IMG/VR virus record: IMGVR_UViG_3300032323_001295
Span: 1-56,825 of that record
Origin: a virus
Length of the DNA: 56,825 nt
Direction: 5' to 3' (one strand)
The notes beneath the pieces were generated by a model that worked only from the letters and a program-made list of their open reading frames with translations, was not told the DNA's origin and ran no database searches. Shown here in pieces: positions 4,941 through 33,121 of the stretch (position 1 is its first letter; the number at the start of each line of letters is the position of its first letter). The translations under genes were made by a program, and so were the position numbers.

Positions 4941-4947
4941 ATTTTGA

Positions 4948-5024: not shown

Positions 5025-5031
5025 AAACAAT

Positions 5032-13663: not shown

Positions 13664-13702
13664 ATTGTAATTAGCTGAAAATTTAATTGAGAGAATCAAA
13701 TC

Positions 13703-16186: not shown

Positions 16187-16783
16187 ATGGACTTTTCATA
16201 CGTATCGCACCCAACTTTACCACCAGAGCTAAAAGCTCTGATTTTAGAAACTGTAGAAAAAGAATGGGATAATCTACAATCCACTAATATCCAAATGAAA
16301 GCCTCGGCTTCTGTTGTTAATGCAATTACTGAAGATGTAGATTTAACTAACAACTTGGGTTGGCATTACAGCGAAAGTAAATCGCACTTTCCTTTCATCT
16401 GCGATTATTACGTGTTTGATGTTCCTGCAGAGGTAGCTCTTTGGTTAAGAGATAATGTATCAACCCAACCTGCTAATATACAAGTAATGGCTGGCGGTAG
16501 CCATGTTCCACCGCACATCGATGAAATTAGAAAAGGTGCCCTTAATTACATTATAGATTTGGGAGGTGATGTTAGAACTGTATTCTATAATGTTAAAGCT
16601 GAAAGTTCTGGACAAAATGCCACACCATTCACTGTAATTCCTTATGAAAAATTAGATGTCTCTAACGACATTGAAATCCAAGCAGAAAGATGGCACACAC
16701 TAGATACTACAAGAATACACAGTGTCGAGGGAATTAATTCAGCTAAGAAAAGAATTGCGATTTCTATCAGTATTATTGAATAG
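16187..16783 (+). CDS. 2OG-Fe(II)-oxygenase-like DSBH protein
   Basis: The protein has 198 residues. HID (His110, Asp112) sits in GGSHVPPHIDEIRKGALNYI, the distal histidine is His178 in TRIHSVEG, and the 2OG-binding arginine is Arg189 in KKRIAIS. Triad spacing is that of aspartyl/asparaginyl-hydroxylase-like phage oxygenases. A perfect late-type box and an AAGGAA ribosome site precede it. The aminotransferase gene follows on the same strand behind its own late-type box. Substrate unknown. Confidence 0.75.
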   Translation: MDFSYVSHPTLPPELKALILETVEKEWDNLQSTNIQMKASASVVNAITEDVDLTNNLGWHYSESKSHFPFICDYYVFDVPAEVALWLRDNVSTQPANIQVMAGGSHVPPHIDEIRKGALNYIIDLGGDVRTVFYNVKAESSGQNATPFTVIPYEKLDVSNDIEIQAERWHTLDTTRIHSVEGINSAKKRIAISISIIE

Positions 16784-16804: not shown

Positions 16805-16833
16805 GTTTGAAAGATTTTCTTTCAAAATTATCT

Positions 16834-18036: not shown

Positions 18037-19068
18037 ATCAAGAGTTAGACAATGTATGCCCGATTCCCAGAATAGTCCATGTCTTTGATTGACCACATGA
18101 CAATTAATTCCTAGAGATTCCATTAGTTTAAAGATTCTAGGTTGAACATTTGAAAACAGTACGTTGTTCGAATCAAGAACTAGAACATTGCTATCAAAGA
18201 ATACTTCCTGAGCATAGCCTTTCCATTCCGTTAACCATTTATTCAGCCAACCATTTGAGTATTTGCCGCCTGTACTCTGATAATCTGTAATAAACTTTAC
18301 ATCATCAAATTTTTCAAACAGGCTTTCTAAAGCAAATATTCTTTTATTACGTAACGGTTCTGGTACCCAATCAAGATTTACACAGAATACTGTTTCGTCG
18401 TCAGTCATAAACCAACCGTGATCTATATGTCCCCACCCTTGTTGATGTGTATTACCTACATCAACGATAGTATTTCTTTCTACATTGCGTTGCATCCACA
18501 TAAGACCGGAAGCAGTTCCGGGACCTTGACAGTTGGTTATGAGTTTATCGCCGCACTTAAACATAGTAGCGGTATGCCATAGAAGCCTATCTTTCAATTG
18601 TCTGTGATAGACATCTTGACCATTAGCCCACCATTTTTCTACTAACGTTTCTAACACAGGTGGAGGTTGACTGATCCAGTTGTATCCTCTATCAAACAAT
18701 TCTTGGAATATATGATTATAATTAACACTGTCTAGATATCTATCAGGCATACTAGTATAAGTCTGATATATGGTATGCCCGTAGGCCAGGTATTGATCTC
18801 GTGGAACTAACGGTGCTGTTGGATTTGTAACTATGAAATTTTTCAAATCAACATCGTGGCCGTAATTTGTTACCTTAGGTCTATGAACTCTAATTCCTAA
18901 TTTACTAATATAGTCTGAAAGATTCTGTAAATCTTCTTTAGTTTCTTCTAGAATAATATTAAATTTATTCTGTGCTTCGGGATCTAAAGCCCAATCTAAG
19001 TCTCCAGGAGAATAACAATCTCCAACTATCACTTCTTTTAGGGGATCCCAGTTAGTCCAAATACTCAT
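17998..19068 (-). CDS. amidinotransferase / guanidino-group-modifying enzyme
   Basis: The protein has 356 residues, starting SIWTNWDPLKEVIVGD, the N-terminal mark of the glycine-amidinotransferase / dimethylarginine-hydrolase superfamily. GHIDH at 213-217 holds the catalytic histidine. Cys340 in SGIHCLTLDLVR is the nucleophile that forms the amidino-thiol intermediate. The enzyme would move an amidino group from arginine to an amine, or hydrolyse a guanidine. Being beside the aminotransferase favours the first. It is coupled (overlap of four bases) to the small gene upstream. Acceptor unknown. Confidence 0.82.
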   Translation of the reverse strand: MSIWTNWDPLKEVIVGDCYSPGDLDWALDPEAQNKFNIILEETKEDLQNLSDYISKLGIRVHRPKVTNYGHDVDLKNFIVTNPTAPLVPRDQYLAYGHTIYQTYTSMPDRYLDSVNYNHIFQELFDRGYNWISQPPPVLETLVEKWWANGQDVYHRQLKDRLLWHTATMFKCGDKLITNCQGPGTASGLMWMQRNVERNTIVDVGNTHQQGWGHIDHGWFMTDDETVFCVNLDWVPEPLRNKRIFALESLFEKFDDVKFITDYQSTGGKYSNGWLNKWLTEWKGYAQEVFFDSNVLVLDSNNVLFSNVQPRIFKLMESLGINCHVVNQRHGLFWESGIHCLTLDLVRAGEKRSIIS

Positions 19069-19496
19069 GTGTTTAAAATCTCTTTCAAATAATCTTCGTC
19101 CCAGTAAGAGTAGTAATCCGTCTTGGCTAACTTTTCTCTAGCTGAATTGAGTTCATCTCTCCACTGACATAATAATAAATTATATTTGCCATTATTAGTC
19201 TGCACATCCTTGATCTCGGTGTTTCTATCTTTATGGTCTGGTAAAAAGACTAGATCCGGGTGTATCTTGTTATAGACATCTGCTAATTCATATAATTCTT
19301 CTTGGCTCCATGCATCTGGTAACACATAAATTATTAGATCAAATGCCCAAGGCGGTGGATCGATATCGCTGCCGTCAGTTTCGATTATTTCGTATTCTGC
19401 GTTTTTAGCGAAAGGGCAAATTGAAAATCCGCCAAGGACAATGTGTTTAGCAGATAAATCTTCTACCCAGCTTTTGATGTGTTGCTTAATATCCAT
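19065..19496 (-). CDS. small hypothetical protein with CPFAK motif
   Basis: The protein has 143 residues. GGFSICPFAKNAEY at about 22-35 has the CPFA(K) block that I associate with DUF1415-type proteins, but I cannot confirm the family. The rest is a mixed alpha/beta protein with no other cysteine motif except Cys129-like LLLCQW. It overlaps the SDR gene (11 bases) and the amidinotransferase gene (four bases), so the three are one translational unit. It may be an accessory subunit of the neighbouring enzymes. Confidence 0.45.
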   Translation of the reverse strand: MDIKQHIKSWVEDLSAKHIVLGGFSICPFAKNAEYEIIETDGSDIDPPPWAFDLIIYVLPDAWSQEELYELADVYNKIHPDLVFLPDHKDRNTEIKDVQTNNGKYNLLLCQWRDELNSAREKLAKTDYYSYWDEDYLKEILNT

Positions 19497-20097
19497 TTAA
19501 TACTGTGATACTTGAAATAAAATTCCTACCATTAATCGATTGCAATATCAGGTCTACGGTTTTTGTTAAATCTTCTACGGTGATAATACTATTTGTTTCT
19601 ACAATTTTTTTATATAAATCTATGCCGTTTTGCTCTTCTGTATCGTAGGGATTATAAAAGTTTGTTTGACAAACGCCTGGCATAATAACAATGCTTTTAC
19701 ATTTACTGCCGCTGTGATTTATTTCCCAACTGAGTTTGTTGATAGCATATTTTTCATCGCCGTAAGGAGTGAGCCATGGAAACTCTTCAGGAATGTTTGC
19801 CAAAGGTTCTGCTGCTATAGAACTGGTATTAACAATAAAGTGTTGATCACTCCAATGCTGTTGCTGCCACAATCTTGCTATTTCAACTTGTTGATAGTGA
19901 TGATAGGCATTATTAAAAAACAGATCGCAATCTCTAGTAAGCTCTATGATACGATCTATATTTTCTTTTTTTGAAATGTCGAAACCATTGTCTAAACTAA
20001 AACCTTTTACTCGACAACCTAATTTTGTAAAATGATCAAACAACCCTTTGCCTATGCCTCTGGTGTGACCAGTAATAGCTACGTTTTTAAATTCCAT
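19486..20097 (-). CDS. short-chain dehydrogenase/reductase
   Basis: The protein has 203 residues. TGHTRGIGKG at 9-18 is the Rossmann cofactor loop, NNAY follows at 62-65, serine at 92-93 (NTSSIAA), and Tyr117/Lys121 form the YxxxK active site. Length is at the short end of classical SDRs because the C-terminal substrate loop is reduced. It would oxidise or reduce a carbonyl/alcohol with NAD(P). It lies between an unknown gene and the CPFAK gene in a tight operon, so it probably acts on the island's intermediate. Confidence 0.85.
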   Translation of the reverse strand: MEFKNVAITGHTRGIGKGLFDHFTKLGCRVKGFSLDNGFDISKKENIDRIIELTRDCDLFFNNAYHHYQQVEIARLWQQQHWSDQHFIVNTSSIAAEPLANIPEEFPWLTPYGDEKYAINKLSWEINHSGSKCKSIVIMPGVCQTNFYNPYDTEEQNGIDLYKKIVETNSIITVEDLTKTVDLILQSINGRNFISSITVLNGY

Positions 20098-21409
20098 TCC
20101 AGTCCCCGTTCATTCTCCATGTAGGAGTTAATAGTTCAAGATTGTCTATCATTATTAGTTTAGCGTCTGGAACATATTTCTTAATCTTGTCTAATAATAA
20201 ATTTCTCGAATAGATTCTATGCTTCAACGGCACAAAAGGAGCAGCAGGATCATAGTTGAATATGTGGCTAAGATGTATTATGGTTTTATCTGTTTTATCT
20301 AACCATCGTTCTACTGGCAGCATCTTGTTTAGTACCAGATCTTCGTGTCTAAATTCAAACTTAACAGTTTCTTGTATCAAGGTCCACTCGGGTATATCAG
20401 GATCGTATAGCTTGCCTTGTGCGGCTAACCATTCGGTTCCGTCCTTGCCTAAGAATTCAGCTCTTGATTTAATATAGTTCTTAACAAATGTAGCATAGTT
20501 AGAGCCATCCCATTTGTCTATTATTTCTTTCATACACTCTAGAGCAAATAAGTTGTAGTCAACAAACCTAACAACTGTGTCTTTAGTGTATCCGTATGTG
20601 ATTAGATAATCAATCCAATTCAAACCACTGGCCTGTGTTACAAATTGACGTATAGGACCTTGAAATTCTACATCAACTTTTACCTCTGTGTTATGAGGAT
20701 AGAATATAGTCTGAGCCGCTACCTGATTCTTTCCGTAGAGATAGTCACTGGCTGGTAAAAAACTAGGTTCGTAATTAGGATAATAAAACTTTTTATTTTT
20801 TCTAAATCTTTCTGGAAATGGTTTTACAAATTTTCGGTTAGCAAATGCAACACTTAATATATTCCAACCATGCCATTTATGTTTATACTGCTTTTCAGTA
20901 TCCCCAGATACTACCCAGATAGGAGTATAGTCATCGTGAATGTTTTCATCACTGCGTCTAGGTGCTATTTGTGTATGCGGAGAATAGAAAGCAAAGTTTC
21001 CAACCATTGGACAATCTAATTCTTTATACGTCTTTAGATTGATTATGTAGCATTGTTCATGTAATTCGTAATAACCGTCGTCTCTATCAGGTATATGACC
21101 TAATAAGAAAAAGTCTTTACCTGTATAAACTTCTTTTTCAACTTCATTAAAAAATTCATCACCGTTAATAAACTCTGTACCTGTGCTTAATACAACAGCG
21201 TGTGTATAGTCTTTAGCTGCTTCTTTCAATAATTGATCTTCATCTATTCCTTGCAGTACATCAAAACCACTAGACAATATTTTAGTAAGCACAAAGTCGC
21301 TGAGATTCTTCATCAGCTCGGCTGTCCATGCAGTTTGGCAAGTGGGTATTCTATCTAGAAAGATAAAAACTATATCTGGAGAAGGAGCAGGGCTATTAAA
21401 TTTGACCAT
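20087..21409 (-). CDS. large hypothetical protein, possibly two-domain
   Basis: A 440-residue protein that I do not recognise with confidence. The first third (CQTAWTAELMKNL, THAVVLSTGTEFINGDEFF, LLGHIPDRDDGYYELHEQ) has the flow of a GT-A-like nucleotide-sugar domain. The second part has FVDYNLFALECMKEIIDKWD, which resembles a SAM-binding or Rossmann segment, and ends with a helical region. No catalytic motif is complete. It overlaps the SDR gene by 11 bases and the first of five oxygenase genes by 14, so it belongs to the same operon. Glycosyltransferase is only a guess. Confidence 0.4.
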   Translation of the reverse strand: MVKFNSPAPSPDIVFIFLDRIPTCQTAWTAELMKNLSDFVLTKILSSGFDVLQGIDEDQLLKEAAKDYTHAVVLSTGTEFINGDEFFNEVEKEVYTGKDFFLLGHIPDRDDGYYELHEQCYIINLKTYKELDCPMVGNFAFYSPHTQIAPRRSDENIHDDYTPIWVVSGDTEKQYKHKWHGWNILSVAFANRKFVKPFPERFRKNKKFYYPNYEPSFLPASDYLYGKNQVAAQTIFYPHNTEVKVDVEFQGPIRQFVTQASGLNWIDYLITYGYTKDTVVRFVDYNLFALECMKEIIDKWDGSNYATFVKNYIKSRAEFLGKDGTEWLAAQGKLYDPDIPEWTLIQETVKFEFRHEDLVLNKMLPVERWLDKTDKTIIHLSHIFNYDPAAPFVPLKHRIYSRNLLLDKIKKYVPDAKLIMIDNLELLTPTWRMNGDWNGI

Positions 21410-22049
21410 ATTGTTTATTATACGATCTTACTAGCAAATCGCAAAATTCTTCTGTTCTATTGCCTAAGATTAAATTAGCAATCATGTGTACTCTATCTTT
21501 ACTGCTGCGATTAAACACTGCGTGATTTTTGCTGATATTAACCAACATGACTTTACCTTCTTGCCAAGGAACTGCTCCGTGACCTTCTATTTCCATCGTA
21601 CAATTCGCAGGATGTGCAACAGCAACATTGATAGGAAGTATACATTGTAGAGGATCGATCTCTTTTGGTATTTCGCCATCATTGTGCCAATCTATATAAC
21701 CGCCGGCACTGACTTTCATAAATCTAATTCTTGTATATCTTTCTGAAGGGAATCTATTCCTCCAAAAATCTGTAATAATTGGAGTTCTATAGGCTAGGTC
21801 GGTGTATTGATACGGAGCTTTATATTCATCAAGGCCATAGTTATCGGCGGTGTAAGTTTTGTCTACGCCTAGTCCATGCAGACAACAACTATTCCACCCG
21901 GCACTGGAGGATTCTCTATATTCATTATAGTATGACTCTGCTTCTAGTGCCTGCTGTTTCCAAACATCTACATTAAAGTCAATGTCTAATTCTAACCAAG
22001 GAATGTCTTTTTTCCTTAGTATTTGTCTAGCTTGTTCTACAATATCCAT
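21396..22049 (-). CDS. 2OG-Fe(II)-oxygenase-like DSBH protein (array member 1)
   Basis: The protein has 217 residues. WHNDGE (His122, Asp124), His176 in ISKNHAVFNRS and Arg186 in KDRVHMI give the Fe(II) facial triad and 2OG arginine. The N-terminal 100 residues hold several aromatic and Tyr/Trp-rich stretches likely to shape the pocket. This arrangement resembles aspartyl/asparaginyl beta-hydroxylase-like proteins. It is one of five neighbouring oxygenase genes that overlap by a few bases each. Sequence outside the triad differs, so the five are unlikely to be recent copies. Confidence 0.75.
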   Translation of the reverse strand: MDIVEQARQILRKKDIPWLELDIDFNVDVWKQQALEAESYYNEYRESSSAGWNSCCLHGLGVDKTYTADNYGLDEYKAPYQYTDLAYRTPIITDFWRNRFPSERYTRIRFMKVSAGGYIDWHNDGEIPKEIDPLQCILPINVAVAHPANCTMEIEGHGAVPWQEGKVMLVNISKNHAVFNRSSKDRVHMIANLILGNRTEEFCDLLVRSYNKQYGQI

Positions 22050-22603
22050 TTTTTAAATATTTCCGACGCTTCTGCCATTGTTAATCCTGCTTCAGGATTT
22101 TCCTTTTTGCTTATATCGCAACTAATACACCATCTATGCTCGTTGCCGTAATTGGTAACTTTGTGAGGAACTCCAGTTTGTACTATGCTAGGCCACTTAA
22201 CTGCCTGAGTATGTGCATGAACAACCTGTTCTTCAGTGTACCTTGTATAAGGTGTCCCGGCCTGTGTAGTTGTCATCTCGGTTATTTCAGCATCAGGTGC
22301 TAGATTATACCAGTGCATTAAACTTCCCTCTCCCCCAACTATCCAATTTATAACTGCTCTATCAGTGATAGCATTACCATCGATGTGAAATCCACATTCT
22401 CTATGAGGAGGAGTATAGAATATCAAAGGCGGGTAGGTCATAACTAGACCTTGACTATCTAACCACTGAGTAAATTTTTCACTAACATCGCTATGATCGA
22501 CGAAAAAAATATCCGGTTTATAATCTGACTGATTTAAAATTGTTGGATTTTCTAGTGGATGTTCGACTGGCAATTTAATATCAATGCAATAATTATTGAT
22601 CAT
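22037..22603 (-). CDS. 2OG-Fe(II)-oxygenase-like DSBH protein (array member 2)
   Basis: The protein has 188 residues. HID (His73, Asp75) in ECGFHIDGNAITD, His147 in GVPHKVTNYG and Arg157 in EHRWCIS complete the triad and 2OG site. The insertion between HxD and distal histidine (about 72 residues) is long, including a variable MTTTQAGTPYTRYTEEQ loop that may contact substrate. Overlaps neighbours by 13 and 11 bases. Confidence 0.72.
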   Translation of the reverse strand: MINNYCIDIKLPVEHPLENPTILNQSDYKPDIFFVDHSDVSEKFTQWLDSQGLVMTYPPLIFYTPPHRECGFHIDGNAITDRAVINWIVGGEGSLMHWYNLAPDAEITEMTTTQAGTPYTRYTEEQVVHAHTQAVKWPSIVQTGVPHKVTNYGNEHRWCISCDISKKENPEAGLTMAEASEIFKKWIL

Positions 22604-23132
22604 TTTTTATCCCTATGAAGTTAAACATGAATTTATCTCGGAATCCCGCATTCATTCCTGCATGCCAATCAAGATAATCGTCCCATTGCAGTACCGTTCC
22701 GGCCGGCTGTAAATGATAAACATCATCTTTCAATATAAACACTGCTCCAGGTGATGGCTCGCTGATAAAAATACTGAATCTAATCAACTGACCTTTTGAT
22801 AGATATTTTTCAATGTTGTCATCAATGTCTCGATGCATGGGTGCCATTTTTCCAGGTCTTATTCTACTGATCCAAGCACGAGCACACTGACTGTTTGACC
22901 AATTTTCAAAATGATTGATTACTTTTAAAGAGAAATGTGTTTCTGGATAGTAATTGATCCATTCAACACTGTCTCCTTTATCGTAACCAGCAGACATCCA
23001 CTTGTCGATGATTTCATTAAATCTACCATCTACATTAGCATAAAACTGTTTATGCGGAGTCTTTGGATCACCACGATCAAGATCTAATTCAGCAATAACA
23101 GACTTCCAATCAAAATCGTATAACATAGCCAT
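22593..23132 (-). CDS. 2OG-Fe(II)-oxygenase-like DSBH protein (array member 3)
   Basis: The protein has 179 residues from the chosen ATG, which has a GAAGAAG ribosome site just upstream; a GTG at 23153 is less likely. HRD (His100, Asp102) in GKMAPMHRDIDDN, His157 in LDWHAGMNAG and Arg165 form the expected triad and 2OG arginine. The core strand RFSIFISEPSPGAVFILKDD is typical of DSBH enzymes. Its start lies inside the end of the upstream oxygenase gene, so it is translationally coupled. Confidence 0.7.
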   Translation of the reverse strand: MAMLYDFDWKSVIAELDLDRGDPKTPHKQFYANVDGRFNEIIDKWMSAGYDKGDSVEWINYYPETHFSLKVINHFENWSNSQCARAWISRIRPGKMAPMHRDIDDNIEKYLSKGQLIRFSIFISEPSPGAVFILKDDVYHLQPAGTVLQWDDYLDWHAGMNAGFRDKFMFNFIGIKNDQ

Positions 23133-23751
23133 CTTCTTCAAATTTTTTAACACTCTTATTGATCAAAAACTCATGCTGCTCATTGTCAATGATTCCTGCA
23201 CACACTAGGATAATTCTTTGATCTAAAATTATATCAGCACCGTGCCAGATATCTTTATTATTAAAGGCATACACAGGAGCATTTTCTGGAATCAGCGGAT
23301 ATACCTTTTCTCCATTTTTCTCTTTTGAAATAAAGAAAGACCTTTTATTATAGTGAGGAGTTAACAGTACGTTATATCTCTCAGGACTCATCGGGCCAGT
23401 GATATCAACTTCGTCTCTATGATGCGGCAACACATCGGTGTGGAGGTTGAGTGCGGCTCCTATTAATTGTTTGTAAGGTAATAATTTTAAAACGTCGACT
23501 AGTTCAGGGAACTGTTCTTTAAAACCGGGTGCATAATAAACTTGATGATCTTCTCTTAAATCATAATTTTTATCTGCTTCGGGAAAAACTTCTCGAGCAT
23601 CAGTCCAATCATTTATAGGATTTCTTGATGCTACCATACACAGTGTTGAAGTATAATCTAGATTAGTAATAGCATTGTCTAATACGTAATCTGTTAACTT
23701 TCGTCTATCGGGTATTTTACAAGGAAGGTCTATAGGTGTAAATGCTATCAT
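23110..23751 (-). CDS. 2OG-Fe(II)-oxygenase-like DSBH protein (array member 4)
   Basis: The protein has 213 residues. HRD (His111, Asp113) in LPHHRDEVDITGP, His170 in DIWHGADII and Arg179 are placed as in Fe(II)/2OG oxygenases. The N-terminal 100 residues are unrelated to the other members by eye. The start overlaps the stop of array member 5 by four bases. As with the others, the triad is seen, the fold is known for such spacing, and a hydroxylating role is inferred. Confidence 0.7.
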   Translation of the reverse strand: MIAFTPIDLPCKIPDRRKLTDYVLDNAITNLDYTSTLCMVASRNPINDWTDAREVFPEADKNYDLREDHQVYYAPGFKEQFPELVDVLKLLPYKQLIGAALNLHTDVLPHHRDEVDITGPMSPERYNVLLTPHYNKRSFFISKEKNGEKVYPLIPENAPVYAFNNKDIWHGADIILDQRIILVCAGIIDNEQHEFLINKSVKKFEEDGYVIRF

Positions 23752-24422
23752 ACTTGTATTATCTCTATCGTGAATCCTTTAGATTCTAATTTTTTTACAA
23801 AAGGATTTAAAATTTCTAAGTCGGAACAATTTAATAAAACTTCTCGATCGTTTACTTTTTCAAATCCTGTTATGTTGCCCGACTTAATCGCTCTATTAAA
23901 GAATGTCATTATTTCGATATATGATTCTTGTTTCCAATCATAGTCACCGCCTGACAGTTTTAAAGAATAGCCAGGAGATGTAAAGCCCGGCAATGGTATA
24001 CGTATGTTAAGATGTATTCGATCCCTAGGACCAAAATTTGCAGCGATGTGAACCACACCGGCATCCATATACCATAAGGACCCGTCAGCAGGTAAATGAT
24101 AAAACTTTTCATTAGTAAAATCTAACAAATAGGCAAATGGATTCGTGATAATCGCTACATGGAATCTATCGTCCGGATCGGCGTGAGCACTGTAGGTTTC
24201 TGACGGAGTCAGTCTTAATAATCTAGCCTCACCGGGATTATCTATAGATGCTAGAACATCTCCCAACGGAGTATTTTGAAACTCTGGTTTAGTTTCATAG
24301 GGCCCGGATAATAATTTACCCTTACAATCATTTAGTAAAAGGCTCTTTCCAAAGTCTCCTAAACTGTTGACCTGTTCAATCAGAGGTTCGATAGGAAATT
24401 TTTTATTAAAATTAGTCAGCAT
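23748..24422 (-). CDS. 2OG-Fe(II)-oxygenase-like DSBH protein (array member 5)
   Basis: The protein has 224 residues and is the promoter-proximal oxygenase. HAD (His80, Asp82) in TYSAHADPDDRFHVA, His125 in AGVVHIAANFG and Arg135 in RDRIHLNI make the triad and 2OG site. A C-terminal extension of about 80 residues (MTFFNRAIKSGNITGFEKV) is extra to the core. It is preceded by a 35-base gap to the kinase-like gene. It starts the run that continues through 17998. Confidence 0.7.
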   Translation of the reverse strand: MLTNFNKKFPIEPLIEQVNSLGDFGKSLLLNDCKGKLLSGPYETKPEFQNTPLGDVLASIDNPGEARLLRLTPSETYSAHADPDDRFHVAIITNPFAYLLDFTNEKFYHLPADGSLWYMDAGVVHIAANFGPRDRIHLNIRIPLPGFTSPGYSLKLSGGDYDWKQESYIEIMTFFNRAIKSGNITGFEKVNDREVLLNCSDLEILNPFVKKLESKGFTIEIIQV

Positions 24423-24457: not shown

Positions 24458-25156
24458 TTACTGGTCAAATAGTTCTGTATAGATTTTTGGCAATATATTA
24501 TCGGGCCAATATACGTAGGTAGTTAAAGATCTCTTGAACATAATTTCGATATTAAGTCGTTTACGTTCATCTAGTGCTTCTTCAAACCTATGAGCAGAAA
24601 CATTGATCAACCCTTTGACTTTTTCGAAATCAATGTACGGGTCTTGCTGTTCGATGCAGCCATAGAAATCCATAGTTTTTAAAATTCCGCCTTCGATAAA
24701 ATAGCAATGCGGGTAAAGAGTGATTTTATAATAACCGTCGTTATAGATATCTTTTATGATATCGGACATTTGATCTTTCCAATTTGGGCATTCCGAATCT
24801 AAGTCTCCGCCACCGAAACAACTTTGATTACAATTTTTACCAGGCCATTGTAGAAATATTTTTTGGTCAGCGAAATCAACATCTAAAATCGTCGGAGCCC
24901 AAATCTTATTTTTAAAAATTTCTAAGTATTTTACTTCCCTTTCGAAGAAAAATTTAACCATTTCTTCTGTATAGTAGGGACGACTTGGTAAATGTTCCTT
25001 GACTCCTTCGTTTTGATAAGGATGTGTGTGATCAAAATCCATACACAAAATGGTATTCTCCGGATTGATTAACGGAGTGTAAATTAAGTTTGATTCTATC
25101 AATCTACCGTTTTCGTGATTGATTTTGAAGTATGGATTCCAGTTATCAGTTTTCAT
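24458..25156 (-). CDS. kinase-like fold protein, motif-intact copy
   Basis: The protein has 232 residues. FEREVKYLEIF at 71-81 fits a kinase aC helix glutamate, PTILDVDFADQKIFLQW fits the strand-hinge unit, and HCYFIEGGILKTMDFYG at 150-166 fits a catalytic loop followed by a DFG-like MDFYG (Asp163). An aspartate in the usual HxD position is not obvious, so activity is uncertain. A paralogue at 12977 has lost the MDF. Two extra cysteines (NCNQSCFGG) are shared in position with CAGC of the paralogue. A minus-strand late-type box lies eight bases upstream. Confidence 0.5.
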   Translation of the reverse strand: MKTDNWNPYFKINHENGRLIESNLIYTPLINPENTILCMDFDHTHPYQNEGVKEHLPSRPYYTEEMVKFFFEREVKYLEIFKNKIWAPTILDVDFADQKIFLQWPGKNCNQSCFGGGDLDSECPNWKDQMSDIIKDIYNDGYYKITLYPHCYFIEGGILKTMDFYGCIEQQDPYIDFEKVKGLINVSAHRFEEALDERKRLNIEIMFKRSLTTYVYWPDNILPKIYTELFDQ

Positions 25157-25198: not shown

Positions 25199-25963
25199 GT
25201 GGAACAGCCAAATAAATTAATAATGGATTCATTTAATGTAGAAGGGATCGAAATCCCTTTTGATAATAATTGGAATAGCATAGCCATCAGCCTCAGCGGA
25301 GGTGCTGATAGTGCTTTGTTAGCCTATCTACTCTGCGAACACATTAGAAAAAATCATCTAGAACATATAACAGTCCATGTTATCAGTCATATCAGATGTT
25401 GGAAATCTAAACCTTGGCAGAAATACGACAGTCTTAAGATCTATAATTGGGTCATACAAGAATTTAAAAAAATAAACTTTGAGCGTCATACAAATTTTAT
25501 CGCTCCTGATCTCGAGTATGCTGTTACTGGTCCTAGCCTAACAGACGAATACGGCAAAAAGGTCAGCGGAGACAATATACAGATCAGAGGATTTTCAGAA
25601 TACATCTGTCAGATAAACAATATTGATGCTTATTACAATGCAGTTACTAGAAATCCTAGAGGTGTTGATTTTCAGGGAATGAAAGAAAGAGATATAGAGT
25701 CCAACGAAAGCAATCAACATCTGGTATTAATGAAACATATGGATCGTTGGGCTATTCATCCTTTTAGATTTATTGAAAAGTCTTGGATCGTAGAACAATA
25801 CTACAAATTAGAATTAGAAGAATTGCTGAACAGCACCAGAAGCTGCGAGGGAGTAGTTCCCGGTGTTGACTATAAAACATATAAACCATATCAGTACGTT
25901 CCTGTCTGCGGAGAATGTTTCTGGTGTAAAGAAAGAGAGTGGGCCATTGAACACGCAAAGTAA
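25199..25963 (+). CDS. PP-loop ATPase, QueC/ExsB-like
   Basis: The protein has 254 residues. SGGADSALLAYL begins at 33 and is the PP-loop that binds ATP pyrophosphate and adenylates a carbonyl. The C terminus has Cys216 and CGECFWC (Cys237, Cys240, Cys243), the zinc site arrangement of QueC, which makes preQ0 in queuosine and archaeosine synthesis. The middle differs enough that another amide- or nitrile-forming reaction is possible. Start may be the GTG used here or an ATG 24 bases on. QueD is encoded 16 kb downstream. The next radical SAM gene starts inside its 3' end. Confidence 0.68.
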   Translation: MEQPNKLIMDSFNVEGIEIPFDNNWNSIAISLSGGADSALLAYLLCEHIRKNHLEHITVHVISHIRCWKSKPWQKYDSLKIYNWVIQEFKKINFERHTNFIAPDLEYAVTGPSLTDEYGKKVSGDNIQIRGFSEYICQINNIDAYYNAVTRNPRGVDFQGMKERDIESNESNQHLVLMKHMDRWAIHPFRFIEKSWIVEQYYKLELEELLNSTRSCEGVVPGVDYKTYKPYQYVPVCGECFWCKEREWAIEHAK

Positions 25964-27215
25964 AACATTTTGTATGCACCCGTTTACAGGGTTAGCAACT
26001 AGAGAAGACGGTGCAGTTAAAGTCTGCTGCCGATCAGCTCCCATCGGGTTTATACAGGACAGTTCATTAGAAGAAATCTGGAACGGCTATGCTATGCGTG
26101 AAGTACGTAAACAGATCCTTTGCGGAGAACGTCCGGAAGTATGTAAGCCCTGTTTTGATCTAGAAGATCAAGGAGTTGAAAGTCTACGTCAGCGTCATAT
26201 CAACGGAGTTATTCCTGAAGCACGTATTAACTTATATCCTAACGCATTGGATACATTGAGAGAAGATTACACAATGCCTTTTGAATTTCCCACTATGGAG
26301 ATCAAACTTAACAATCTCTGTAATCTAAAATGTCGTATGTGCCATCCGATGGATTCGACATCGTGGAATGATTGGAATCAGGTCAAAGACTTTTATGTAA
26401 AAGAAAATAATTACTTGGTTCCAGTGATCAGCAATCTAGGTTTAGAAACTAGCAGATATCTATGTCCATTCGAAGACACAGATAATTGGTGGGCCAGCTT
26501 TGAAAAACTATTACCACACTTTAGACGAGTAGAGTTTGCTGGCGGTGAGCCATTAATGGATCCGCAGCATTACAAAATTTTAGATATGTTGAAGCCTTAT
26601 GGAAAAAATATTGAACTCAAATACGCAACTAACGGAACAACAACAGGCATCAAAGGCGGTAGAACTATACACGACTATTGGCCACATTTCCGTAGCATTG
26701 CGGTTAATGTTAGCATCGACGGTATTCACTCTGTGTATGACTATATTCGCTCTAATTCTTCGTTTGCTACCGTAGAGGAAAATGTCAAAGTATTCCAATC
26801 ATTTCCTAATGTCAGCAGAGTCGTGGGAGCATTTACAGCACAGGCGGGAAACATCCTTCAGGCAGCAGAGTGCATTGATTATTTTATTAACGAAATGAAC
26901 ATAGTTTTTTATAGCCACAGAGTCAGCTATCCTAACTGCCTATCAGCGCAGGTGTTACCCCAAGAGTTAAAAGAATTAGCCATCAGTAGATTAGAAGCAG
27001 TGTCTAAAAGAGTTCCGTTGTTTGCTAATGTAGGAAAATATCCAATATTAGAAAAAATCACACAACAGCAGATCAAAGACAACATAAACTATCTACGAGC
27101 CAAAGATCAAAATCATCTTTGGAACGACTTTGTAGAGTTCAATCGAAAGTTAGATGCTACTAGAAGTCAGGGACCTTTAGAAAATATCGTGACAGAATTT
27201 AAACCTTATGTATAA
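25947..27215 (+). CDS. radical SAM protein with N-terminal SPASM-like domain (copy 1)
   Basis: The protein has 422 residues from a TTG start with an AGAGAG site; the ATG 27 bases on would cut off a conserved cysteine. The N-terminal 75 residues read FCMHPF...DGAVKVCC...SLEEIWN...CKPC (Cys9, Cys27, Cys28, Cys66, Cys69), a SPASM-type auxiliary-cluster pattern that normally sits at the C terminus. The radical SAM motif CNLKCRMC starts at 125 and FAGGEPLMDP follows. SPASM enzymes usually modify peptides. It overlaps both neighbours. A paralogue is encoded at 29065. Confidence 0.78.
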   Translation: MNTQSKTFCMHPFTGLATREDGAVKVCCRSAPIGFIQDSSLEEIWNGYAMREVRKQILCGERPEVCKPCFDLEDQGVESLRQRHINGVIPEARINLYPNALDTLREDYTMPFEFPTMEIKLNNLCNLKCRMCHPMDSTSWNDWNQVKDFYVKENNYLVPVISNLGLETSRYLCPFEDTDNWWASFEKLLPHFRRVEFAGGEPLMDPQHYKILDMLKPYGKNIELKYATNGTTTGIKGGRTIHDYWPHFRSIAVNVSIDGIHSVYDYIRSNSSFATVEENVKVFQSFPNVSRVVGAFTAQAGNILQAAECIDYFINEMNIVFYSHRVSYPNCLSAQVLPQELKELAISRLEAVSKRVPLFANVGKYPILEKITQQQIKDNINYLRAKDQNHLWNDFVEFNRKLDATRSQGPLENIVTEFKPYV

Positions 27216-28104
27216 AATAACCAGTGCTTGGCCCCATCAGGATCAAATTAAAGTAGAGTGGAATCTTGGCAAACGCTGCAACTATGATTGCAGTTATTGT
27301 CCTTCAGAGATTCATGATAATTTTAGTCCGCACACCGATATCAATCTTTTAGAAAAAACTGTAGATCAATTATGTGAGATCGGTAAACCATTGAGGTTAA
27401 GTTTTACAGGTGGAGAGCCCTCGGTACATCCAGACTTTGAAGATCTATTAGAGTACTGCAAAAGAAAAAGTATATTTTGGATTAACTTAACTACGAATGG
27501 TACTAGACCGTCTAGTTGGTATATTAATAATGAAATGTTTTTTAATCACATTGTATTCAGTTTACATTTTGAATATGATTGGCAGCGAGTAGTTCGTACC
27601 ATTAACGAATTCTACGATAGAACTGAAATAGATTTTTTCGTTAATGTCATGGCCCACCATGATCATATGGATAGTGTACGTAAAGTGGTCAAACAGTTTA
27701 AAGAAGTTGGTATAAAATTTGCTGTTCGTCGTATACGCTGGACTGAAGGAGATCATAATATATTCGATGATCTAAGATATCAAGGAAACGATCTTCAATG
27801 GATACTCGAACAAGATGCCACAGCCAAACCTAATGTTCGAATAGATGATAACGAAATACTACACGCCAACGATGTTATTAAACTACATAAAAATCAATTC
27901 AAAGACTGGAGTTGCAATGCTGGTTTAGAAAGCCTAATGATCAATTGGGACGGTGATGTACATCGTGCTACCTGTCGTGTAGGCGGCAGTCTAGGCAATA
28001 TCTATCAAGGAACCTTCCGTGTTCCCACAGAACCTATAACTTGTACTAGAGACTGGTGTACCTGTGCAGCGGATATTCCATTGTCAAAATGGCGTCCTGC
28101 TTAA
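27208..28104 (+). CDS. radical SAM protein, short twitch-type (copy 1)
   Basis: The protein has 298 residues. CNYDCSYC (Cys24, Cys28, Cys31) and FTGGEPSVHPDF identify the radical SAM core. The C terminus WSCNAGLESLMINWDGDVHR...CTRDWCTC supplies a second cysteine group like the twitch/SPASM auxiliary cluster. It belongs with the proteins encoded at 28046 and 32141, which share the CNYxCxYC motif and the W(S/H)CxxG block. It overlaps the radical SAM gene before it by eight bases and the convergent one by 59. Confidence 0.78.
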   Translation: MYKITSAWPHQDQIKVEWNLGKRCNYDCSYCPSEIHDNFSPHTDINLLEKTVDQLCEIGKPLRLSFTGGEPSVHPDFEDLLEYCKRKSIFWINLTTNGTRPSSWYINNEMFFNHIVFSLHFEYDWQRVVRTINEFYDRTEIDFFVNVMAHHDHMDSVRKVVKQFKEVGIKFAVRRIRWTEGDHNIFDDLRYQGNDLQWILEQDATAKPNVRIDDNEILHANDVIKLHKNQFKDWSCNAGLESLMINWDGDVHRATCRVGGSLGNIYQGTFRVPTEPITCTRDWCTCAADIPLSKWRPA

Positions 28105-29068
28105 CAAACTTTGTAGCATTTATTTCTGGTTGACAGAAACAACCTTCCTGTCTACAGGTCGTTTCTTTAATCTCCGGAGCGAATGTTTCCTTGAACTTTT
28201 CATCAAATACATTATATTTGAAATCAAGATCATAAAGCGTTTCTCCGCAGGCTCCTTGTAGGTTGCCGTCTTTGTTGACATAAAGTGTTTCAATACCCAG
28301 ACTACAGCTCCATCCTTTGAAACGGTTTAGACCGTTCAATGATATCCAGTTCTTATCAACTTTCTTAGTAGTAAAATTTTCAAATGTCAGCTTAGGGTTT
28401 CTGCTGATCATCTTGTTATTTTTCAACCACCAAAACATATTAGGCATTCTTTTTACAGAATCGCTGATAAATTTTTTCTGATCTTCTGTATAGGAAATAG
28501 TAGAATGAGAAACTTCTAATGCTATAAGCGGCCACTTGTGTTTGCTATTCTTCAATCGTTCTATGATAGATAAACACTGATCCCATTGAGTAGGATCCAT
28601 TAATACCATTGCTGTTAGATCTACATTTTGTTTGTAAAGGCAATCAGCTACTTCGATAGTATGATCGGTATTGATAAATTGATGATGACAACTGATCATT
28701 ACATGATCAAAGTTCTTACCGTATTCTTGCCACCAACGCAGAGTACGTGATCCATTAGTGGATATACTAATAATACATCGATAATTGTCTTTGAAAAATC
28801 TAGTGAATCGTTCTATCTCGGGCCAGACGGTTGGTTCCCCGCCGATGATATGTATATGGAATCTTTTCTTACCTAGTTTTTCTTTATAATAATCAAATAA
28901 GAAACAGAGATTAGATGTTAATGGTTCTAGGTTAGGCCAGCGGTGTGTGCCTTCGTTGCTGCCTGGAAAACAATACCAACACTTGTAATTGCAGACATTG
29001 CTAAGAAATAATTCTATTCTCAGCAGATCCTGTGGTGCATTAGAATCTATCCGTACAATGTCTTTCAT
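28046..29068 (-). CDS. radical SAM protein, twitch-type (copy 2)
   Basis: The protein has 340 residues. CNYKCWYC (Cys26, Cys30, Cys33), then IIGGEPTVWPEIERF. The C terminus has WSCSLGIETLYVNKDGNLQG...CRQEGCFCQ as a second cysteine group. It is a paralogue of the protein encoded convergently, and the two genes overlap tail to tail by 59 bases. It is coupled to the upstream radical SAM gene by a four-base overlap. Substrate unknown. Confidence 0.78.
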   Translation of the reverse strand: MKDIVRIDSNAPQDLLRIELFLSNVCNYKCWYCFPGSNEGTHRWPNLEPLTSNLCFLFDYYKEKLGKKRFHIHIIGGEPTVWPEIERFTRFFKDNYRCIISISTNGSRTLRWWQEYGKNFDHVMISCHHQFINTDHTIEVADCLYKQNVDLTAMVLMDPTQWDQCLSIIERLKNSKHKWPLIALEVSHSTISYTEDQKKFISDSVKRMPNMFWWLKNNKMISRNPKLTFENFTTKKVDKNWISLNGLNRFKGWSCSLGIETLYVNKDGNLQGACGETLYDLDFKYNVFDEKFKETFAPEIKETTCRQEGCFCQPEINATKFVKQDAILTMEYPLHRYTSL

Positions 29069-30477
29069 AGCAGATGTGCTAGTTCTGGAAATGTCTTTTT
29101 AAAGTCTGTTTTTCTCAGAGTATCTAATTTTTCTATATACTCTCGGAATGCAGGCAATAGATGTGTGTGATCTTCTGAATCCATAAAGTCTAACATAGCC
29201 TGCCAACGGCGCCAACCGTAGGGATTATATTTCCAAAAGTTATCATCTTGACGATAATTGTCCCACAACCATTGTTTGAACTCTGCAAACTTTTCTCTGA
29301 CTTCTTGTTTGTCCTGCTCGGGCAGCACACGTAGGCTAAGGAATGTTGGAATATACAGCAGATGCATATTAATAATACCACCGCCAGCATCTGCGCCTTC
29401 CATAACTTCAGCTAGATTTATTTTACGATAGTTTTTCTGTATCTTCCATTTGGCAAAGTCTGGAAGATGTTTGATGTTTAATATCTGTATGGCAGTGGCG
29501 ATGCTGACTTCTACATTGTCAGGAGTCTGATCTAGTATATCTAGATTCTTTTCTACTATGCTCCAATCCGTAGGGAATCTAATATAGTGATTACGATCAC
29601 CGTAGGCATCTTGGCTACAGGCAAATTTAACTTTCTTAAAGTTTTTCCATAGATCTATGATGTCTTGATCCAAAAGCAGTCCATTAGAATTGTATCTGAT
29701 CAGAATCTTGTCTGCATAACCTTGCCTTACGATTTCTTCTAAGAACAGTTTATGTTCTTTGATCATCAAGGGTTCACCGCCGGCGAAGTATACTTGCCTT
29801 AGGTTAGGAATCTGAGCATACATCTCTTTCCAGAAGTCTGGATTCTCATGCCAGAAGTTATTAAAATCTTCACGACCCCAGGCCATCTGCTCTTTTAGTT
29901 CTTTGGCTTGAAATAGAGGATACACTTTTTTGTGATCGGCTACCCATTGACTGCTGTCGTGTGGGCTACACATGATACATTTTAGATTACAGGTATGTCC
30001 TAGTCTGAGATCTAGATAAACTAAGTTTTCTGGTACGGTACCATCTTCTTCTGTCTGTTTAATTAATTCGGGTACGTCGATACCATCTTGTACCCATAGA
30101 CCAGTTTCCCACATGCGTTTGCTAGAAACACCTTTGGCTTCTTCATCGAAACATTTAGAACAGCTTTTGGGAATGTTACCTTCTAACATAGTGGTGCGCA
30201 CTGACCTCATGTATTCGTTGTTCCAGGCACTCATAGGGGTTTCTCTGCCAAAATTAGCAGGTCGACCAGTTTCGTTTTTCACAAGACCGATTTGATGATC
30301 TTCGCCGGCGCCACTGGAGTTAGCACCACAACAGAGTCTCATATCACCATTGGGTCTAGTAGCAAAGTGTATCCACGGCAGCACACAGAAAGTATGACTC
30401 CCGGAAAGATCAGCGACCTTACGCTGCCACTTACCTAGCAGGTTATCTTCGGGCTGTAACCAATAAATTTTATCCAT
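29065..30477 (-). CDS. radical SAM protein with N-terminal SPASM-like domain (copy 2)
   Basis: The protein has 470 residues. N-terminal auxiliary-cluster pattern: FCVLPWIHFATRPNGDMRLC followed by C (Cys31, Cys49, Cys50) and CSKC (Cys106, Cys109). The radical SAM motif CNLKCIMC starts at 163 and FAGGEPLMIKEH follows. The layout is the same as the protein encoded at 25947, with extra loops. SPASM before the barrel is a rearranged order compared with anaerobic sulfatase maturase-type proteins. The gene overlaps both radical SAM neighbours by a few bases. Confidence 0.78.
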   Translation of the reverse strand: MDKIYWLQPEDNLLGKWQRKVADLSGSHTFCVLPWIHFATRPNGDMRLCCGANSSGAGEDHQIGLVKNETGRPANFGRETPMSAWNNEYMRSVRTTMLEGNIPKSCSKCFDEEAKGVSSKRMWETGLWVQDGIDVPELIKQTEEDGTVPENLVYLDLRLGHTCNLKCIMCSPHDSSQWVADHKKVYPLFQAKELKEQMAWGREDFNNFWHENPDFWKEMYAQIPNLRQVYFAGGEPLMIKEHKLFLEEIVRQGYADKILIRYNSNGLLLDQDIIDLWKNFKKVKFACSQDAYGDRNHYIRFPTDWSIVEKNLDILDQTPDNVEVSIATAIQILNIKHLPDFAKWKIQKNYRKINLAEVMEGADAGGGIINMHLLYIPTFLSLRVLPEQDKQEVREKFAEFKQWLWDNYRQDDNFWKYNPYGWRRWQAMLDFMDSEDHTHLLPAFREYIEKLDTLRKTDFKKTFPELAHLL

Positions 30478-31561
30478 TAAATGTTTCTACTTTTACAAAT
30501 TGATCATCGTACTGTGTTAATATCTTTTCAGGAAATACTCCGCAGGTCTTAGCACAGGTAGCTAATTTTTTATCTTCCCAATATTTAGACCAAATATTTC
30601 TCCACTGCGAATCCGATAGTATTTCTTTTACGGATCTAGATTTTAGATCGATAGCGGTATAACCTCCTAGCGATTCTACCAGTTCGTTGATAACAGCAGT
30701 CTGTTCAGTCTGATATGTGTGAATAAGATCTGTAGACTTGCTGTAGATATAAGGCAGCGCACCTATCCAACAACAGGGCCATAGATTTTTAAAAGCATCT
30801 ATGTACAGAGATTTGTCCTGCATGACCTTGCAGCGTATTTCCGCTGTTTCAACTACTTTTTTATAACCTAAGATGATCTTAGGATCGATAAAAGTTATCT
30901 TATGTTCCTGTGGAGGCTCTATCTTATAAGCTAGGTTGCCATCTTGATCTAATACATCCAACCAGGGCTTTTCTAAAAATCTGCTAGTAGCTTTGTGATT
31001 AAACTTTTCAAAGCCCAGTGTTCTCGCTAATTCTTTTGCTTCATCGATCTGATGTTCGTTATGCTTGAAGCTGAGATAAACCCATTCTGCTTTGCCTCCA
31101 TTGCTGATAAACGTTTTAGCATTTTCAATAATCTTATTGAAGTCTGTGCCTATCCTATACAAATGATGCGTATCTGCTAATCCATCTAAGGCAAAATGCA
31201 CACAATGTTCTTCAGGCAATGCCTGTGCCAACTGCTGCCACCAATCTTTAGTTCTGGCACTGCCGTTAGTGTGGATACCTATGTTGATAGACGGCTTCAT
31301 GGTCTTGCAATATTCCACTATATCGATAAGGTCATTAGACATTATAGGATCGCCATAGTTTCCACAGAAATAGATATATCCAATCTGACCAAACACTTCA
31401 GCATCGACTATTTTTTTAAAATCTTCTAGAGATATTTCGTCTAAAGGAAGATTGGTATTTTTCTGACCGCCGTGATAGTTTCTTGCACACATAGGACAAC
31501 TGGCCTGACATCTCGAGGTCAATTCAATGTGCAGTGTTTTAAGTTCTGAAAAATCAAACAT
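30470..31561 (-). CDS. radical SAM/SPASM protein
   Basis: The protein has 363 residues. CQASCPMC (Cys18, Cys22, Cys25) starts the core; FCGNYGDPI replaces the GGEP block. The C terminus RCKVMQDKSLYIDAFKNLWP, then CC and later CAKTC, is a SPASM-type region in the usual C-terminal place, with EILSDSQWRNIWSKY between as in other SPASM proteins. It is coupled to the methyltransferase gene upstream (eight-base overlap) and to the next radical SAM gene. Probably modifies a peptide or small substrate; unknown. Confidence 0.8.
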   Translation of the reverse strand: MFDFSELKTLHIELTSRCQASCPMCARNYHGGQKNTNLPLDEISLEDFKKIVDAEVFGQIGYIYFCGNYGDPIMSNDLIDIVEYCKTMKPSINIGIHTNGSARTKDWWQQLAQALPEEHCVHFALDGLADTHHLYRIGTDFNKIIENAKTFISNGGKAEWVYLSFKHNEHQIDEAKELARTLGFEKFNHKATSRFLEKPWLDVLDQDGNLAYKIEPPQEHKITFIDPKIILGYKKVVETAEIRCKVMQDKSLYIDAFKNLWPCCWIGALPYIYSKSTDLIHTYQTEQTAVINELVESLGGYTAIDLKSRSVKEILSDSQWRNIWSKYWEDKKLATCAKTCGVFPEKILTQYDDQFVKVETFNG

Positions 31562-32150
31562 TCTTGTGTCCTATGAGCATGAATCTTTTATATAAAGGTA
31601 ATTCTAATTCCCCTGCCCACAATACTTTGATATTACATTGATCTTTAAATTCTTCTAAGCTGTCAGCTATCCTAACATGTTCTGGTATATTATAATTGTT
31701 GCTTTGAAGAACTAACAAACTGTTGTGAGAAACTTTGTCTAGCCAATTATTAAATTGTTCTTGTGTGATATGCTCACAGCTAGTGTTAATGATAACATCT
31801 GCACTGCTATCTACTGAACACATGTCGGCAGTGATAGCAGAAAACTTACCAACCATTTCTTCTATCTTATTCATGTTGATAGCGATTGGTTCACACAATG
31901 GATCAATATCTATACTGCGGATTTTTAATATAGGAACATCACTTTGAAATAACATACTGGCTAATACGCCTACCCAACCTCCGTGGATATCTACCGTGAC
32001 AAACTTGTGAATGTGTTTGCGTAGATTTGTAATCAGCCACTCTTTGCTTTTAAGTTGTCCCTGCCAGAAGGCATCCATAGTCCGCATAGGTTCTGGACTT
32101 TGTCTTATGGCCTGCATCCAATGATGTAGATGTTCTGTGTCTATTTGCAT
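31554..32150 (-). CDS. class I SAM-dependent methyltransferase-like protein
   Basis: The protein has 198 residues. VDIHGGWVGVLASML is a glycine-rich motif I, IRSIDIDPLCEPIA gives the acidic end of strand 2 that binds ribose, and DVIINTSCEHI fits the catalytic strand 4 region. The fold call is moderate. It lies between two radical SAM genes and overlaps both, so it acts in the same process. The phosphate-like substrate or peptide substrate cannot be told. Confidence 0.6.
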   Translation of the reverse strand: MQIDTEHLHHWMQAIRQSPEPMRTMDAFWQGQLKSKEWLITNLRKHIHKFVTVDIHGGWVGVLASMLFQSDVPILKIRSIDIDPLCEPIAINMNKIEEMVGKFSAITADMCSVDSSADVIINTSCEHITQEQFNNWLDKVSHNSLLVLQSNNYNIPEHVRIADSLEEFKDQCNIKVLWAGELELPLYKRFMLIGHKNV

Positions 32151-33121
32151 TTTGGTATCTTCGAGTCTGCTGAACTAAAACAGCTAGGTGTTGTACATAT
32201 CGTAGGAGATTTAAAAAGTTGAAAACCTTTAGTTAGGGTTCCTAATCTCATGTCGTGGCAACTATAACTTCTTTTAACTTCATCGCTCCGTATAATCACA
32301 CTCTGGAATCCAGAATTACAATGCCAATCTTCAAATTTGTTAAAACCAAAAGCGTTGAATCTTTCTGCTTGATCAAATAGATATTCTTTGCCTTCAGCAT
32401 CATATAGGGCTATTTGATACAGTTCTTCTCCGTTGGCGTGTTGAGGAAATCCTGTCTGCATTTTTTCTATCATATCATCTGTGTAACCTTCTACGATAAA
32501 ACTAGCAGTAGGATCGCTCTGTGGTTTTAGTGTTACATTAATTCCCCGGTCATGCAATCTTTTCATACGTTCATAAAGGTCATAGAACTTTTCCGGAACC
32601 ATAACCTGATTAATAGTTACATAGACTTGCTCATACATCAGTTGTAGGCATTTGTCTCCAAACTCTTGTTCTTTGGCAAACTCATCATGGAAACTGGCTG
32701 TTATGCTCCTACGCTGTAATAGTGAAGTTGCTTCGCACCAACTTTTCCACCACTTGCTACCAGGACTTAAATTCGTTGTCATGTGGACACTTTGGTAGCC
32801 GCTTTCTTTTTCGTCTAGGTGTTTAATCAATTCGATCAAGTCTTTATAGGCCGTAGGCTCACCGCCACTGAAACTCCAATGGAATTCTGTGAATCCATTT
32901 TCGCGAGCCTGTCTTTTGATTTCGTCTACGGTTCTTTTATAAACTTCTAAAGTGTCATAATCTACTTTGTCCGATCTAGCATAAGGCCAGCAGTAGGAAC
33001 ATTTATAATTACAGAAGCGACCAAGTATCCAACTTACAGAAAACAAAGGTCTGTCTAGCATAGTACGTTGTCCAAAGCGTACTATATTTTGAAATGGTAT
33101 TGATTTGAAATCGGTTGTCAT
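32141..33121 (-). CDS. radical SAM protein, twitch-type (copy 3)
   Basis: The protein has 326 residues. CNYKCSYC (Cys37, Cys41, Cys44) and FSGGEPTAYKDL mark the core. The C terminus has WHCNSGFQSVIIRSDEVKRS and CTTPSCF, the second cysteine group seen in its paralogues at 27208 and 28046. It is the first gene of the minus-strand radical SAM operon running to 28046. A weak late-type box (ATTAAATA, minus strand) lies just upstream. Confidence 0.78.
   Translation of the reverse strand: MTTDFKSIPFQNIVRFGQRTMLDRPLFSVSWILGRFCNYKCSYCWPYARSDKVDYDTLEVYKRTVDEIKRQARENGFTEFHWSFSGGEPTAYKDLIELIKHLDEKESGYQSVHMTTNLSPGSKWWKSWCEATSLLQRRSITASFHDEFAKEQEFGDKCLQLMYEQVYVTINQVMVPEKFYDLYERMKRLHDRGINVTLKPQSDPTASFIVEGYTDDMIEKMQTGFPQHANGEELYQIALYDAEGKEYLFDQAERFNAFGFNKFEDWHCNSGFQSVIIRSDEVKRSYSCHDMRLGTLTKGFQLFKSPTICTTPSCFSSADSKIPKCK

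Follow-up and report, generated by a model that had tools for sequence, protein, structure and literature searches.

The 56,825-base IMG/VR virus record IMGVR_UViG_3300032323_001295, a fragment of a phage genome that is termed the window here, encodes nine radical S-adenosylmethionine (SAM) proteins within a single gene island (~5,880-33,121, including a fibre gene at its left border). We find that this radical SAM island is a trait of a phage group rather than of one odd phage, and that its source is a large aquatic tailed virus of bacteria from a T4-related jumbo-phage group. Our favoured, tentative reading, to which we assign a probability of about 0.4, is that the island encodes a cytosolic tailoring pathway acting on tail-fibre or adhesin proteins, or on a glycan carried by them. 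Genes are named by their left-hand coordinate, and + and - denote strands.

Nine window genes match the radical SAM profile PF04055 above its curated cut-off (7491, 9046, 11362, 25863, 27208, 28046, 29065, 30470, and 32141), and a search for a tenth with PF04055 across the window genes found none. Exactly nine CxxxCxxC motifs occur among the 67 called genes, in the same nine genes, compared with 0.1 on average and never more than 2 in residue-shuffled proteins (500 shuffles). All nine motifs listed in the initial annotation are present where they were named, and its count of six radical SAM genes within 7.2 kb is right in number and span; the three genes it placed elsewhere are not separate, however, as one ~26 kb island holds all nine. 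The open reading frame of the first of the six starts at 25863, and an in-frame start at 25947 is the better fit. In both radical SAM families that were aligned, the catalytic and auxiliary cysteines are invariant, and between relative pairs with more than 75% identity codon changes are 3-11 times fewer at position 2 than at position 3. With so few changes at position 2 and with the cysteines invariant, the nine proteins look like working enzymes, and the codon pattern indicates that the genes are under purifying selection.

The initial annotation also called nine such genes in one phage exceptional, which holds against most phages tested but not against all. Radical SAM counts are 0 in P-SSM2, S-SSM7, Syn10, and phiKZ, 1 in T4 and in Erwinia phage SNUABM_32, 2 in Mosig, and 0-4 in each of the cultured capsid relatives described below; richer genomes are KVP40 (5), Vibrio phage K566 (6), a 735-kb phage (9), and CP220 (11), with 12 reported for CPt10 (PMC2853527).

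Three query proteins matched 594, 348, and 17 viral-contig stretches, with up to 90% identity. In 44 related viral records, Pfam identified between 2 and 19 radical SAM genes, with at least six in 43 of the 44; these records were picked by one radical SAM match and include some near duplicates, such that the presence of one gene follows by construction while the number does not. Altogether, the loci read contain 647 distinct radical SAM proteins. The densest record (G025, loci L198-L200) has 19 radical SAM genes in 57 kb and lacks both the 7491/9046 pair and the halogenase. When 16 records, several of them partial, were compared, a core of ~12 families was seen to recur: 12435, 12977, 13703, and 24458 in 16/16 records, radical SAM gene 30470 in 15/16, 25863, 27208, and 29065 in 14/16, 28046 and 32141 in 13/16, and 31554 in 11/16. 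The halogenase, amidinotransferase, and aminotransferase are accessory and lie outside this core. Within distant islands, the commonest match other than radical SAM was Asp/Asn hydroxylase (14 of 132 proteins); methyltransferases and epimerases came next in frequency.

Individual blocks of the island differ in their nearest relatives. While 32141 is 90% identical to its counterpart in record G001, 25863 and 29065 are only 64-65% identical to those of G001 versus 73-76% to those of the distant record G016, and 28046 is likewise closer to G016 than to G001. By these identities, the island is a mosaic, apparently of exchanged cassettes. Unlinked acquisition of the genes from bacteria was rejected, since they are conserved together in as many as 16 records and the phage and bacterial clades of 32141 are separate; far from lacking shared phage homologues, the genes are common to many other phages.

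The window itself contains T4-type fibre genes and 13 tRNA genes, the latter in several clusters beside the island (24-5104) and including Gln, Thr, three Arg, three Leu, Met, and Gly. Capsid proteins of the gp23 type are found in relatives of 270, 217, and 124 kb (G037, G016, and G018) and not in the window, which is a fragment. The T4-type capsid protein of the larger records is close to those of the jumbo phages Phosso, PA5oct, and GAP32, with that of G037 showing 72% identity to Sinorhizobium phage Phosso and ~70% to Vibrio phage 2.275.O and PA5oct. In this respect the arrangement corresponds to the host-recognition clusters of the T4 superfamily, defined here as a hypervariable island next to fibre genes in a phage whose capsid protein is of the gp23 type: the fibre gene 5880 stands at the island border, and gp23 is present in relatives. 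Elsewhere in the window, an endonuclease gene (43580-44608), of the UV-damage type by its relatives' annotation, encodes a protein 47% identical to an Erwinia jumbo-phage enzyme.

The nine radical SAM enzymes fall into five groups. The first, 7491 (7491-9053, -; CKFKCAYC, PF04055 64 bits) and 9046 (9046-10665, -; CRFKCAFC, 66 bits), has a B12-type architecture; no match to the B12-binding domain PF02310 exceeded the cut-off (18.5 bits versus 32.1, in 9046 only), the DxHxxG cobalamin motif is absent from 7491, and PHROGs gave no function for either gene. These tandem genes are 52% identical, remain paired in 12 of 16 records, and form the only pair that looks like a phage-lineage duplication. 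The second group, 25863 (25947-27215, +; CNLKCRMC, NF033640 313 bits) and 29065 (29065-30477, -; CNLKCIMC, 404 bits), belongs to the family with an N-terminal twitch domain (N_Twi), as both exceed the NF033640 cut-off of 170 bits and carry the twitch cysteines, with C31, C49, C106, and C109 invariant. The third comprises three short proteins: 27208 (27208-28104, +; CNYDCSYC, PF04055 56 bits), whose C-terminal auxiliary-cluster cysteines are invariant in alignment A2; 28046 (28046-29068, -; CNYKCWYC, 41.5 bits); and 32141 (32141-33121, -; CNYKCSYC, 55 bits), the best conserved of the nine. Viperin-like defence was rejected for this group, since the NF038283 scores (47.9, 45.6, and 38.7 bits, respectively) are far below the cut-off of 180. 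The remaining two groups are single genes, the phrog_21308-like 30470 (30470-31561, -; CQASCPMC, PF04055 47 bits, phrog_21308 89 bits) and 11362 (11362-12444, -; CNLACPHC, PF04055 65 bits), which has the N-terminal zinc ribbon of HMPTM-type radical SAM proteins (PF23545, 62.7 bits versus a cut-off of 27).

The initial annotation proposed that 27208, 28046, and 32141 are related and may have arisen by duplication within the phage lineage. Their homology was borne out by BLASTP (E 3e-12 and 4e-22) and by a clade with support of 0.90 in a phage-only tree. The duplication within phages was not: in a joint tree with bacterial sequences, each protein clusters first with bacterial ones (32141 with 17 at support 1.0, 27208 with three at 0.98, and 28046 with one at 0.885) and only then with the other two, and the proposal was rejected on this ground. 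Because each first joins its own bacterial relatives, this phylogeny places the split among the three before their arrival in phages.

The closest bacterial relatives lie on Bdellovibrionota chromosomes, in contigs of up to 937 kb, where orthologues of 29065 (~50% identical), 32141 (50-57%), 30470, and often 31554 occur together. A 32141 orthologue is present in 17 of 290 Bdellovibrionota genomes and in none of 398 Pseudomonadota control genomes. A genome scan relied on alignment A1, so that the short radical SAM proteins of bacteria are only partly covered. An old transfer of 32141 between phage and bacteria would fit its tree, because 57 phage and 16 bacterial proteins form separate clades. 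Like the window, the Bdellovibrionota loci (for example L245, L246, and L254) contain the 29065/30470/32141 trio, often with a 31554-like methyltransferase, and most of the trio loci read hold 3-9 radical SAM genes; unlike it, they lie on bacterial chromosomes with many glycosyltransferases and membrane proteins, and no pseudokinases were found in them. Family 2 glycosyltransferases make up 15 of 99 neighbours of the trio in bacteria. Overlapping stretches of one 937-kb Bdellovibrionia contig (L245 and L274) carry ~13 radical SAM genes in ~35 kb, as well as membrane proteins, an SGNH-like hydrolase, and a QueC-like ATPase. Additionally, four contigs of marine metagenome-assembled genomes (MAGs) labelled Acidimicrobiaceae, Gammaproteobacteria, Chloroflexi, and Rickettsiales (L262, L263, L265, and L266) have 10-13 radical SAM genes in 21 kb; they are islands of bacteria or else phage contigs placed in the wrong bin. 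The bin of a Thermoplasmata archaeon includes a 3.5-kb contig (L243) that encodes a 29065 relative with 67% identity and two more radical SAM proteins, and this contig is likely phage contamination of the MAG.

Between 7491 and 33121 the island packs 28 genes, most of which overlap, and the coding fraction is 1.0. Its partner proteins include seven that resemble 2-oxoglutarate (2OG)-Fe(II) oxygenases, each with an HxD...H...R arrangement; the Pfam cut-off is passed by one only, the Asp/Asn-hydroxylase-type 21396 (21396-22049, -; PF05118, 44.8 bits), and the other six are putative assignments. These are 13703 (13703-14506, +), a core protein in which H177, D179, H233, and R246 are invariant over 21 relatives and for which no PDB relative was found by sequence; 16187 (16187-16783, +), 22037 (22037-22603, -), 22593 (22593-23153, -; a core family), and 23110 (23110-23751, -), recognized from the spacing of the motif only; and the Asp/Asn-hydroxylase-like 23748 (23748-24422, -; PF05118 E 0.0026, under the cut-off).

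Two paralogous core proteins, 12977 (12977-13726, -) and 24458 (24458-25156, -), are present in 16/16 phage records compared. In profile searches their family (A6) hits Bud32 and protein kinases (E 2.6e-5). The AlphaFold model of 24458 (predicted local distance difference test, pLDDT, 94) has a protein-kinase fold (Z 13). Since the aligned region has other residues in place of the catalytic HxD, both are probably pseudokinases. No match to 24458 was found among 50,697 phage records.

Among the accessory genes, 14500 (14500-16092, -) encodes a flavin-dependent tryptophan-type halogenase (PF04820, 296.6 bits versus a cut-off of 21) that is 32% identical to the halogenase of cyanophage Syn10, a member of the same Pfam family with predicted activity that we take to be a VirX1-type viral halogenase. 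It is followed, after 16187, by a class III aminotransferase (16807-18036, +; PF00202, 152.6 bits), an amidinotransferase (17998-19068, -; StrB1-type E 9e-19, HsvA 1e-18, AGAT 4e-11), a protein to which no family was assigned (19065-19496, -; in 10/16 records), and a short-chain dehydrogenase-like protein (19486-20097, -; PF00106 slightly under the cut-off). Further along are a glycosyltransferase-like protein whose N-terminal domain is modelled with a GT-A fold (20087-21409, -) and a QueC-like PP-loop ATPase (25199-25963, +; weak PF01171, QueC-like phrog_1550). The island also contains a putative SGNH-hydrolase-like protein (10692-11381, +), with a GDSH start and a weak Mosig relative; the core protein 12435 (12435-12989, -), acetyltransferase-like by eye only and without a PDB relative; and the methyltransferase-like 31554 (31554-32150, -; NF045844 weak), which belongs to the core of both the island and the bacterial locus and occurs in phages, Bdellovibrionota, and Mosig. 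For 12435, 13703, and 20087, no function emerged when their sequences were searched against PHROGs, Pfam, and the PDB.

If the tailoring reading is correct, the nine enzymes would be parts of one co-inherited, exchangeable pathway of the T4-related jumbo-phage group, which would make or install a complex non-canonical modification in the host cytosol during infection. Its chemistry might combine C-H chemistry by radical SAM enzymes with hydroxylation, halogenation, amidination, amide formation, and glycosyl transfer. The likeliest acceptor would be the phage's own receptor-binding or tail-fibre protein, or a glycan or small group on it, and cassette exchange could then change virion surface chemistry along with the adhesins. 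The cytosol of a respiring cell supports oxygen-sensitive and oxygen-using enzymes together, and thus the presence of both types in one island is no contradiction.

Several observations point in this direction. The left border is formed by a tail-fibre or adhesin-like gene (5880-7505, +) with an Mtd_N domain (PF18454, 43.5 bits), and a gene of this kind lies at the island border in six records (the window, G001, G016, G007, G035, and G026); in 7 of 17 loci of the 9046 family, the fibre gene directly overlaps the radical SAM gene. Membrane-like segments were predicted in only 4 of 306 island proteins, compared to 42 of 154 bacterial neighbours, a scarcity that fits a soluble acceptor. Independent T4-related phages (Mosig, Phosso, and CP220, the last downstream of the baseplate lysozyme) have similar islands by their baseplate or fibre genes. 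Because of the fibre-gene border, the few membrane proteins, and these comparable islands, we infer a soluble tailoring pathway acting on receptor-binding proteins or on a group attached to them; joint action of the genes, a virion protein as acceptor, and each individual reaction belong to the same inference. In the modelled N-terminal domain of 20087 (pLDDT 87), the best structural neighbours include LH3 (Z 10.1) and the PBCV-1 capsid glycosyltransferase (Z 10.0), which would be in keeping with it. The family 2 glycosyltransferases around the bacterial trio, the prominence of Asp/Asn hydroxylases in distant islands, and the mosaic blocks point the same way.

Other observations weigh against this reading. 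No acceptor, product, or modified virion protein was seen. A border fibre gene was not found in G037, nor was the fibre motif in 9 of the 17 loci of the 9046 family, some of which end at a contig edge. The GT-A fold is common, other GT-A proteins and nucleotidyltransferases score as well as LH3, and 20087 had no PDB match by sequence. Collagen-like repeats, a natural acceptor for LH3-like chemistry, were present only in the window, in a tail fibre cut by the window end (55869-56825) with a 117-residue Gly-X-Y run; as no other record examined has such a run, collagen-specific modification was rejected as a general role. Finally, a host-type surface glycan would account equally well for the glycosyltransferases near the bacterial trio.

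This last point leads to the main rival, which we consider unlikely: that the island alters host surface polysaccharide during infection and so excludes competing phages, a role put forward for the glycosyltransferases of pelagimyophage host-recognition clusters (PMC7029224). Consistent with that published proposal, the bacterial relatives adjoin glycosyltransferases and sugar epimerases, and distant islands match epimerase, GDP-mannose-dehydratase, and hexapeptide-transferase families. Yet no flippase, polymerase, or membrane transferase was seen among the island proteins, of which so few look membrane-spanning, and just one of the 28 window island genes is glycosyltransferase-like, most of the enzymes being types that act on amino acids or aliphatic C-H bonds.

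The mix of enzymes also resembles biosynthetic clusters, the amidinotransferase is nearest to the natural-product enzymes StrB1 and HsvA, and PDB entries hit by the radical SAM profiles include SkfB, YydG, and further peptide maturases. The island might thus make a diffusible small molecule or a ribosomal peptide natural product, for example against competitors or acting on the host. We regard this as rather improbable: PqqD-type recognition domains were found in 0 of 17 records, a search that would miss divergent recognition domains, the tightly packed island leaves almost no room for a short precursor gene, which might instead lie at a distance, and with hardly any membrane proteins there is no evident exporter.

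Modification of phage DNA, RNA, or nucleotides (hypermodified bases, tRNA, or viperin-like chemistry) is suggested by the QueC-like ATPase, the thirteen tRNA genes, a ThyX-type thymidylate synthase, and weak viperin matches. It appears very unlikely, however, as those matches reach at most 48 bits against the cut-off of 180 and the islands are mosaic and fibre-linked; moreover, we know of no radical SAM array with a halogenase and an amidinotransferase that acts on bases. Least probable of all is auxiliary metabolism, in which unlinked enzymes would aid infected cells when oxygen is scarce, an idea raised for CP220 (PMC2853527) and in line with the oxygen sensitivity of radical SAM chemistry, given that O2-using families (halogenase and Asp/Asn hydroxylase) share the island, that a fixed core recurs across very different records, and that no member of a central-metabolism family was found in that core.

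The tailoring reading can be set against known systems. Campylobacter phages CP220 and CPt10 were described in 2010 as having 11 and 12 radical SAM genes and an interchangeable cluster with an amidinotransferase, which was termed highly unusual (PMC2853527). Like the window they are T4-related, with many radical SAM genes and nucleotide-sugar-transferase-fold proteins near baseplate genes, and the CP220 amidinotransferase matches 17998 at 110 bits; in contrast, the stretch read has no N_Twi pair, pseudokinases, halogenase, or 32141 orthologue, and the CP220 radical SAM proteins are only distantly related to those of the window (at most 60 bits). Pelagimyophage host-recognition clusters are reported to differ by radical SAM cassettes (PMC7029224). 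Pelagibacter phage Mosig (MT647606) has a hypervariable island by its tail fibres that shares radical SAM genes, Asp/Asn hydroxylases, an aminotransferase, a 31554-like methyltransferase, and an SGNH-like protein with the window, but has two or three radical SAM genes rather than nine and lacks most core families. The cultured Sinorhizobium phage Phosso (PV764938) likewise has a radical SAM cluster by virion and baseplate genes, although its four Pfam radical SAM matches show very weak similarity to the window families. In KVP40 (128000-160000, L331), three radical SAM genes weakly like 25863/29065 lie near a QueC-like gene.

As far as the literature was searched, what is new is the conserved core and its distribution across a jumbo-phage group, the partners that resemble pseudokinases and 2OG oxygenases, the orthologues in Bdellovibrionota, and the relative ages assigned to the paralogues. 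No paper turned up on Phosso, on radical SAM enzymes in connection with Bdellovibrio glycans, or, PMC2853527 and PMC7029224 aside, on jumbo-phage islands of radical SAM genes. A bolder proposal, which we put forward as speculative and somewhat doubtful, is that a viral radical SAM pathway shared with relatives in the predatory lineages of Bdellovibrionota builds a new class of densely modified (glyco)protein on adhesins, with swappable cassettes altering receptor-facing chemistry in a chemical analogue of tail-fibre switching.

Phage radical SAM clusters have been on record since 2010 without a function, and they can now be described as an island with a conserved core that recurs in a widespread group of aquatic jumbo phages. 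Enzymologists gain a large unexplored reservoir of enzymes whose bacterial orthologues are now named, while phage biologists gain a testable target in the mass of virion proteins from the cultured relatives Phosso and Mosig. If virion proteins do carry such modifications, phage receptor recognition would gain a chemical layer that is not now considered.

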